Assembly (NCBI GenBank): GCA_013002865.1
Contig: JABDLU010000145.1
Location: 1-35,577, forward strand
From: Acidimicrobiia bacterium
GTDB taxonomy: Bacteria; Actinomycetota; Acidimicrobiia; Spongiisociales; SHLN01
Reading direction: 5' to 3'
Length of the DNA stretch: 35,577 bases
Below, piece by piece: positions 561-5,450 of the stretch (position 1 is its first letter; each line of letters begins with the position of its first letter). A model generated the notes under the pieces. It made no database searches, was not told where the DNA came from, and was given only the letters and a program-made list of their open reading frames with translations. The position numbers and the translations under genes were made by a program.

Positions 561-563
561 TAG

Positions 564-605
564 GACTTTCGGCCCTAGTGGCTGCTTCTGCAGCTGGCCG
601 ATACT
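564..605 (+). promoter_or_regulatory. Candidate promoter 1: DosR-like box GACTTTCGGCCCTAG (564-578) plus -10-like GATACT (600-605)
   Basis: 15-bp box identical to 4192-4206; GATACTCA shared with the second copy at nearly the same spacing. Confidence 0.5.
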
Positions 606-3386: not shown

Positions 3387-3704
3387 ATGGCAACCGAAAC
3401 ACTCGCCGGGACGACCGTCGAAGTCGACGACGAAGGCTTCTTCGTTGATCCGAGCAACTGGACCGAGGACATGGCTCCCGAGCTGGCATCGCATGTCGGC
3501 GTCGACGAGCTCACCGAGGACCACTGGACGGTCATCAAGTTCTGCCGCACCGACTTCGCCGCCAAAGGTGAGAGCCCGACCCTGCGCCGGGTCTCGACCG
3601 AGGCAGGCGTTCCGACCAAGCAGCTGTTCCAGCTGTTCCCGAAGAAGCCTGCCAAGAAGATGAGCTACGTGGCCGGCGTCCCCAAGCCCAAGGGCTGCGT
3701 GTAA
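3387..3704 (+). CDS. DsrC/TusE-family sulfur relay protein
   Basis: DEGFFVDPSNWTEDMA... and C-terminal AGVPKPKGCV arm with penultimate Cys; RBS ggaggg. Confidence 0.85.
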   Translation: MATETLAGTTVEVDDEGFFVDPSNWTEDMAPELASHVGVDELTEDHWTVIKFCRTDFAAKGESPTLRRVSTEAGVPTKQLFQLFPKKPAKKMSYVAGVPKPKGCV

Positions 3705-3713
3705 GGAGAAACA

Positions 3714-4193
3714 ATGGACAAATTCGCCGACGACACTGACAGAAAACTCTGCATCATCGTCAGCAAGGGCACGCTGGACGGTGCGTATCCGAGCCTGATC
3801 ATGGCCAACGCCGCGCTGGCGGAGGGAATCGAGACGCATCTCTTCTTCACCTTCTGGGGACTCGATGTCATCACCGAGAAGAAGATGGGCCACCTGCCGG
3901 TCACACCGGTCGGGAACCCGTCGATGGGTATGCCCCAGGCCGTTGCCCCGATGCCGGGCATGGCGACCGTCGCCACGAAAATGATGAAGAAGAAGATCCA
4001 CGATCTCGACGTTCCCGACATCGAGGAGTTCGTTGAGATGCTGTCGGACATGGGGGCGCACCTGTGGGCGTGCCGCATGACCGTAGACATGCTCGACCTC
4101 GACGAGGGCGACTTCCATGAGAGCGTCGAAGCGGTCATTTCGGCCGGGGACTTCATCGAAATGTCGGAGGGCGCTCAGCTGCTCTTCACGTGA
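3714..4193 (+). CDS. DsrE/DsrF/DrsH-like (DsrE2) sulfurtransferase-family protein
   Basis: KLCIIVSKGTLDGAYPSLIMANAALAEGIETHLFFTFWGLD... and ACRMTVDMLDL motif; operonic position after DsrC/TusE. Confidence 0.85.
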   Translation: MDKFADDTDRKLCIIVSKGTLDGAYPSLIMANAALAEGIETHLFFTFWGLDVITEKKMGHLPVTPVGNPSMGMPQAVAPMPGMATVATKMMKKKIHDLDVPDIEEFVEMLSDMGAHLWACRMTVDMLDLDEGDFHESVEAVISAGDFIEMSEGAQLLFT

Positions 4194-4232
4194 CTTTCGG
4201 CCCTAGGCCGACGTTCCTCGGTGGCGGATACT
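4192..4232 (+). promoter_or_regulatory. Candidate promoter 2: DosR-like box GACTTTCGGCCCTAG (4192-4206) plus -10-like GATACT (4227-4232)
   Basis: Exact copy of the box at 564-578; box start to GATACT is 35 nt here versus 36 nt there. Confidence 0.5.
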
Positions 4233-4237
4233 CACCG

Positions 4238-4405
4238 GGTAAACGCCACCGATGGCGACTCAGAACATACGGAGATCAACTCCTGTTCGGGTTCTGAGGA
4301 CGAACTGAGAGACGGGCTCCTCCCCATACGGCCCGTCTCTCGGTCGCGGCTGGACTTCGTCCAGCTTGGCAGTTGCTTCGCAACTGCAGAGCGACATCGC
4401 GAGGA
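4238..4405 (+). ncRNA. Candidate highly structured small RNA (tandem hairpins plus a multibranch domain, C-rich loop)
   Basis: Stems: 4244-4248/4253-4257; 4259-4266/4291-4298 enclosing 4271-4274/4280-4283; 4304-4317/4331-4344 (one wobble) with loop UCCUCCCCAUACG; 4349-4355/4359-4365; 4369-4376/4380-4387; possible closing TCGCG 4344-4348/CGCGA 4398-4402. Preceded by candidate promoter 2. Confidence 0.5.
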
Positions 4406-4412
4406 ATCGGCG

Positions 4413-4604
4413 TTAGCCCTTGGGGTCTTTGGAGTCCTCGGGCTCGTCTTCGGCAAGCCCGTCTTCGAGGCCTTTTTGCAGCTCTTTGACGGATGAGCCG
4501 AGAGACCGGGCCAACTCCGGGAGGCGCTTGGCGCCGAACAGGACGAGAAGCACGACGAGGACGACGATTGCCTCTCCCCATCCGAGACCGATTGCAGCGA
4601 TCAT
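4413..4604 (-). CDS. tatA: Sec-independent protein translocase TatA/TatE
   Basis: MIAAIGLGWGEAIVVLVVLLVLFGAKRLPELARSLGSSVKELQKGLED. Confidence 0.9.
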   Translation of the reverse strand: MIAAIGLGWGEAIVVLVVLLVLFGAKRLPELARSLGSSVKELQKGLEDGLAEDEPEDSKDPKG

Positions 4605-4703
4605 GCCAACCTCTGATTGCGTGATCGAAGCTTAGGTCAGAACCCGGGTTGGCGGGCCATAGGCCCAGCTCACCAGGTAGCGTGCCGGGCCAGGAGGTAC
4701 GCA

Positions 4704-5450
4704 ATGTCCATGACCGAACGAACCGATCAGCTCGCCACCGAGAGCACGTGGGACTTCTCCGACTTGAAGGCCCTCTTCATCAACTGCACGCTGAAGAAAT
4801 CGCCTCAGCAGTCGCACACTCAGGGGTTGATGGACATTGCCATCGCCATCATGGAAAAGAACGGCGTTTCGGTCGAGAACATCCGGGCCGTCGACCACGA
4901 CATCGCATTCGGGGTGCGACCCGACATGACCGAGCATGGCTGGGAGACCGACGCCTGGCCCGAGATCTACGAAAAGGTCATGGCGGCCGACATCCTGGTG
5001 CTCGGCTCGGCGATCTGGCTGGGCGAGAAGACCTCCATCTGCACCCAGGTCATCGAGCGTCTCTACGGCAACTCCTCGGAGCTGAACGACAAGGGCCAGT
5101 ACGCCTACTACGGGAAGGTCGGGGGCTGCATCATCACCGGCAACGAGGACGGCGCCAAGCATTGCTCGATGAACATCCTCTACTCGCTTCAGCACCTCGG
5201 ATACACGGTCCCGCCTCAAGCCGACGCCGCCTGGCTGGGCGAAGCCGGCCCTGGTCCCAGCTATCTGGACGAAGACTCGGGTGGTCCGGAGAACGAGTTC
5301 ACGAACCGCAACACCACCTTCATGGCCTGGAACCTCATGCACCTGGCGCGCATGCTGAAGGATCGCGGCGGTATGCCGGCCCACGGCAATCAGCGATCGC
5401 TGTGGGATGCCGGCTGCCGGTTCGACTTCGAGAACCCCGACTACCGCTGA
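4704..5450 (+). CDS. Flavodoxin-like / NADPH-dependent FMN reductase-family protein
   Basis: LKALFINCTLKKSPQQSHTQGLMDIAIAIMEKNG...VLGSAIWLGEKTSICTQVIERLYG...GGCIITGNEDG; RBS aggaggt. Confidence 0.8.
   Translation: MSMTERTDQLATESTWDFSDLKALFINCTLKKSPQQSHTQGLMDIAIAIMEKNGVSVENIRAVDHDIAFGVRPDMTEHGWETDAWPEIYEKVMAADILVLGSAIWLGEKTSICTQVIERLYGNSSELNDKGQYAYYGKVGGCIITGNEDGAKHCSMNILYSLQHLGYTVPPQADAAWLGEAGPGPSYLDEDSGGPENEFTNRNTTFMAWNLMHLARMLKDRGGMPAHGNQRSLWDAGCRFDFENPDYR

Follow-up and report, generated by a model that had tools for sequence, protein, structure and literature searches.

Analysis of a 35,577-nt stretch of Acidimicrobiia DNA (the window) indicated that the interval between dsrE2 (3714–4193, plus strand, PF13686) and tatA (4413–4604, minus strand, PF02416) holds two unlike elements that adjoin each other, a conserved cassette at 4190–4348 and a copy of a dispersed repeat at 4349–4387. 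The cassette is probably best read as a DosR-controlled small-RNA gene; with the repeat excluded, we hold with moderate confidence that its product acts in trans through a C-rich loop. This reading is favored because the cassette is conserved far above the background, because its box and -10 element are common to relatives, and because it is kept after the neighboring operon has been lost, in a genus in which the genome analyzed here encodes a DosR orthologue. A sequence-only reading of the same DNA had taken five consecutive hairpins at 4238–4405, behind a promoter of their own, as a candidate small RNA. This view is well supported for approximately 4239–4348 and fails for 4349–4387; the array does not form a single unit, since the last two of its five hairpins belong to a repeat that is dispersed through the genome.

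Structure and conservation of the cassette

The hairpins in 4238–4405 are real and non-random. The predicted fold of this segment has a free energy of -81.2 kcal/mol, with z-scores of -4.8 on the plus strand and -4.0 on the minus strand, and none of 200 shuffled sequences was as stable; when the last two hairpins were left out, the core reached a z-score of -5.6. Within its own genome this stability is strong but not unique: the segment ranks sixth to ninth by fold z-score when compared with the 284 intergenic strand-windows drawn from a 0.69-Mb genome sample, for which, as in all comparisons with this sample, the gene calls were made within this analysis. Every stem named in the sequence-only reading was found in the sequence, and the DosR-like box and the GATACT element lie upstream of the hairpins as it had described. 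The TCGCG/CGCGA pairing that it had suggested as a possible enclosure of the last two hairpins is not supported: it is missing from the predicted fold, and the CGCGA half is absent in relatives though TCGCG is conserved.

All elements of the cassette are oriented along the plus strand. The DosR-like box GTGACTTTCGGCCCTA (4190–4205) overlaps the dsrE2 stop codon (4191–4193) and is conserved in G003 and G004, which are further species of this genus. The -10 element GATACT (4227–4232) is located 21 nt past the box and is conserved in G003. In the predicted fold, stem-loop 1 (4244–4257) consists of 5 bp (CGCCA/TGGCG), and its counterpart in G004 is a hairpin with a different sequence. Stem-loop 2 (4259–4298) is formed by the 8-bp stem CTCAGAAC/GTTCTGAG with a nested GGAG/CTCC, and adopts the same fold in the three species. 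Stem-loop 3 (4304–4344, arms 4304–4317 and 4331–4344) contains 14 bp with one U-G pair, shows one difference in 41 nt across the three species, and is the probable 3' end of the RNA. Its loop UCCUCCCCAUACG (4318–4330), the proposed pairing seed, is invariant in the three species and is the sole C-rich loop of the cassette, with a longest C run of four. Based on conservation, fold, and strand preference, we infer that the small RNA spans 4239–4348.

Comparison of the three species revealed that the cassette recurs in G003 and G004 with 84–89% identity, and the pairwise identities of the core are 88.5, 83.5, and 87.5%. The flanks of the cassette are 42–58% identical among the relatives, and the fourfold sites that are identical amount to 23 of 54 (43%) in dsrE2 and to 17/34, 12/34, and 11/33 (33–50%) in tatA, with dsrC (37/51) above both genes. 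Sequence comparison indicates a neutral background near saturation and a cassette under strong constraint. In G003, the dsrE2–tatA interval shares the box, the GATACT element, and all three stem-loops with the present genome, and it has an extra hairpin homologous to stem-loop 3 that lies directly behind dsrE2. In G004, the cassette is found on two contigs that overlap at 290/306 identical positions and probably represent a single locus in variant strains. One of them carries tatA, with dsrE2 reduced to a scrap of its 3' end; the box and the stem-loops are still present although the dsrE2 operon is gone, and the -10 element is GATCAT rather than GATACT. Each of the three copies folds into the same three stem-loops (z-scores of -4.8 to -5.7). 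The compensatory changes looked for in relatives are slight, and a single double change (A-U to G-C) among the three species is the only covariation that can be claimed, the shuffle controls for stem changes being powerless with so few species.

The distribution of the cassette is narrow, and it constitutes a new family of a known kind of RNA. No match was detected in G001, G002 (both incomplete and also without a close dsrE2), or other genera, and a search for the exact cassette pattern across the GTDB collection and 138 genomes of the order gave matches in the same genus only. Weak covariance-model matches in G078 and G053 were rejected as homologues, being single terminator-like hairpins at other sites. 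An Rfam search of the window at gathering and relaxed thresholds gave nothing above chance. The best relaxed match was sX13 (RF02232) at 4275–4376, which scored 16 bits where the cut-off is 50 and had an E-value of 0.64; sX13 of Xanthomonadaceae is a structured small RNA too, and this chance-level match extends into the repeat. No terminator-like site with a T-tract was found within 3700–4720, the hairpins there having no U-tract, and of 40 hairpins at gene ends in the genome sample, none is directly followed by TTTT.

A putative DosR-type promoter and a DosR orthologue

The box at 4190–4205 agrees with the published DosR motif TTSGGGACTWWAGTCCCSAA (PMC2275270) at 11 of 14 core positions, and its center lies approximately 41–42 nt before the putative RNA start, i.e., over the -35 region. 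A second, near-identical DosR-like box (562–577, plus strand), conserved in G003, is located before the operon ending in dsrE2 and is followed, 22 nt past the box, by another GATACT (600–605, plus strand). The arrangement of box and GATACT at 21–22 nt is present before both the RNA and the dsrE2 operon in two species, the present one and G003. Since the raw count of the box barely exceeds the control (24 versus 17), the DosR-box argument rests on position and recurrence.

Eight GerE-domain matches were found in the genome. The DosR orthologue (L207, contig C206 of the present genome G000), which is truncated where the contig ends, shares 58% identity over 187 aa with DosR of M. tuberculosis, and both proteins contain AEKTVKNYVS. 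Its divergent neighbor encodes a GAF-domain kinase closest to DosT/DevS structures, and a box-like GGGACCTTTGCCC is located between the two genes. DosR-like boxes were also observed before genes for a small membrane protein (L120, L129, and L130), a zinc-finger membrane protein that is rhomboid-like by eye (L119, L121, and L140), an Rrf2-like regulator, likewise by eye (L125 and L127), and, once, an ETF-like protein (L134). As such boxes recur upstream of like genes in several of the species in this genus, they possibly mark a DosR regulon. In another family, at G053:C58:14120–14191 (L086), a hairpin with the loop CTCCTCCCAATC is followed by the box-like GCGCTTTCGGCCCAA between other genes.

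The dispersed twin-hairpin repeat

The segment 4349–4387 (plus strand) is, by its sequence, a copy of a REP-like twin-hairpin repeat of which the genome contains at least 45 copies. This copy lies outside the small RNA and is absent at the corresponding site in G003 and G004. The copy consists of hairpin A (4349–4365, GCTGGAC/GTCCAGC) and hairpin B (4369–4387, GCAGTTGC/GCAACTGC), both stems being present in the plus-strand sequence; its borders are not exactly placeable, with the flank in relatives unalignable. A DNA search of the genome found other copies for the last two hairpins only. When up to three mismatches were allowed, the pattern GCAGTTGCTTCGCAACTGC matched 48 times, some of these matches being the two strands of one site, versus 2 for a reversed control. 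In the aligned copies, the consensus comprises a 7–8 bp stem with a TNC triloop, a TTG linker, and an 8-bp stem with a TNC triloop. A covariance model built from nine copies, which were picked with structure in view, matched the genome 104 times at an E-value of 0.01 and 45 times at 1e-5; in these nine copies, 135/135 pair cells are standard and 7/15 pairs have changed on both sides.

All copies in the 0.69-Mb sample that conform to the family lie between genes, and the four in-gene matches are unlike it. Across the order, the repeat occurs in 35/137 genomes; it is abundant in two of the family's genera and patchy elsewhere. It resembles REP/BIME elements in being short, extragenic, palindromic, multicopy, and clustered, but differs from them in that two triloop hairpins are always paired through a TTG linker and that the consensus has no GTAG or CGTC tag; in addition, no match to the Y1 (RAYT) transposase (PF01797) was found in the genome, which is about 90% complete. 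The twin-hairpin repeat represents a separate Acidimicrobiia repeat family with clear compensatory changes; our search found no description of it. Besides the copy in the window, its loci include L032–L063 and L088–L116, and tandem clusters occur, for example on contig C178 (2234–2457). Further intergenic repeats of the genome (L047–L063, L172, and L196) include palindromes around CTCGCTGCGCTCGCGGGGGAGGTA and the degenerate tandem tracts GCATCAGGCATC and GACCGGCGACCG.

Alternative explanations

The stem-loops might do no more than form the 3' untranslated region of the dsrE2 operon or its end hairpins, with no independent RNA and with the box and the -10 element incidental or driving something else. 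Other families carry long hairpins immediately past dsrE2, frequently with C-rich loops; the homologue of stem-loop 3 occupies this place in G003, and the window has no other hairpin between dsrE2 and the cassette. We nevertheless regard this explanation as rather unlikely: G004 keeps the cassette and the box without the operon, G003 possesses an operon-end hairpin in addition to the cassette, and invariant loops with three conserved stem-loops are more than a terminator needs. Given these hairpins of other families, stem-loop 3 may originally have marked the end of the operon, and a role as a 3' untranslated region in addition to that of a small RNA is possible. The hairpins behind dsrE2 at L005, L007, L011, L013, L014, L016, and L019, in other families of the order, have C- or pyrimidine-rich loops and no T-tract. 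C-rich loops as a general trait of gene-end hairpins in the present genome were rejected, with 2 C-rich versus 2 G-rich loops among 19.

The strand of the element bears on a further explanation, that the conserved element serves tatA, which adjoins it in the present genome, G003, and G004, as a minus-strand 3' untranslated region or terminator. The minus strand folds well too, but the plus-strand fold is stronger. The single changes in the stems of G003 are A-U to G-U in stem 2 and G-C to G-U in stem 3, and its extra hairpin shows U-G against U-A as well as G-C to G-U; each single change keeps the pair on the plus strand and produces an A-C mismatch on the minus strand. As these changes pair on the plus strand only, and as the box and the -10 element are oriented along it, the plus strand is indicated, and we consider a tatA terminator very unlikely. 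The view of the entire array as mobile or repeated DNA holds for 4349–4387, but stem-loops 1–3 have no second copy in the genome, and the genome search refutes this origin for 4190–4348, leaving it a negligible probability for the array as a whole. It is equally far-fetched that the array encodes a small protein: a GTG frame of 91 codons spans 4221–4496, but it extends antisense into tatA, and the frames in G003 are broken and shifted by indels.

Comparison with known small RNAs and proposed mechanism

Read as a small-RNA gene, the cassette resembles DrrS (MTS1338) of M. tuberculosis, an RNA of approximately 108 nt that has a DosR-type box over its -35 region, a GC-rich 5-bp 5' stem-loop near its start, a long 3' stem, and no U-tract (PMC5360333). 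The proposed RNA shares the box over -35, the length, the 5-bp 5' stem-loop, the long 3' stem, and the lack of a U-tract, a likeness of features and not one of direct sequence comparison. Two features expected of a DrrS-type RNA are present here, a DosR box over -35 with a -10 element, and DosR with a sensor kinase in the genome. DrrS differs in being cut from a longer transcript and in its imperfect 3' stem, and the context here is dsrE2–tatA. In B11, the C-rich loop of the 3' terminator hairpin is the seed for pairing with G tracks close to ribosome sites, and 6C RNA has two C-rich loops of six or more C (PMC12395582). The cassette likewise comprises three stem-loops, of which the 3' terminal one has a C-rich loop, but it has only one such loop with a four-C run, versus two with six and nine, and no U-tract. 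By analogy, its RNA may work like B11/6C, with the C-rich loop acting on G-rich ribosome sites. Membership in the 6C family (RF01066) was rejected, the window giving no covariance-model match and the cassette lacking a second C-rich loop. Among eight genomes of the family, no 6C match was found at an E-value of 0.1, with a weak control in which C. glutamicum was reached only below the cut-off.

In the proposed mechanism, low oxygen would lead a DosS/DosT-like kinase to activate DosR, which would bind the box at 4190–4205 and activate the promoter with the -10 element GATACT. The transcript of approximately 105–110 nt would start near 4239 and end at or just past stem-loop 3. DosR would also turn on the sulfur-carrier operon ending in dsrE2 via the box at 562–577. 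The RNA would act in trans, with the C-rich loop of stem-loop 3 pairing with G-rich ribosome-binding regions of mRNAs and thereby blocking translation of the targets. The fold, the conservation, the strand preference, the promoter arrangement, and the presence of DosR and a DosS-like kinase are observed; the RNA ends, transcription, DosR binding, and target pairing we infer.

The loop described by the sequence-only reading as C-rich and anti-Shine-Dalgarno-like is present and invariant. Complements of the loop at 638 start regions showed no enrichment over shuffles. The best match, TATGGGGAG (10 nt, 0.2 expected), falls on the coxB ribosome site (L177, around 3297, minus strand), which encodes cytochrome c oxidase subunit II (contig C218, 2224–3297, minus strand), and the predicted loop–coxB pairing over 10 nt has an energy of -19.4 kcal/mol. 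This match would fit a low-oxygen regulator and is only a lead. That a DosR-induced RNA lowers aerobic respiration by pairing at coxB, while the same regulator activates the sulfur-carrier operon, is in our estimate quite unlikely. An eight-base loop match also occurs upstream of a cytochrome-like gene in L198.

Our literature search found no paper joining Acidimicrobiia with a small RNA. If the proposed reading is true, the DosR response would extend to a small RNA outside mycobacteria, in a class of Actinomycetota distant from them. Such an RNA would combine two mycobacterial features that are known separately, the DrrS-type DosR promoter and the B11-type C-rich 3' loop, and the C-rich loop offers a short, testable seed. 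The same regulation would tie low oxygen to a sulfur-transfer operon.
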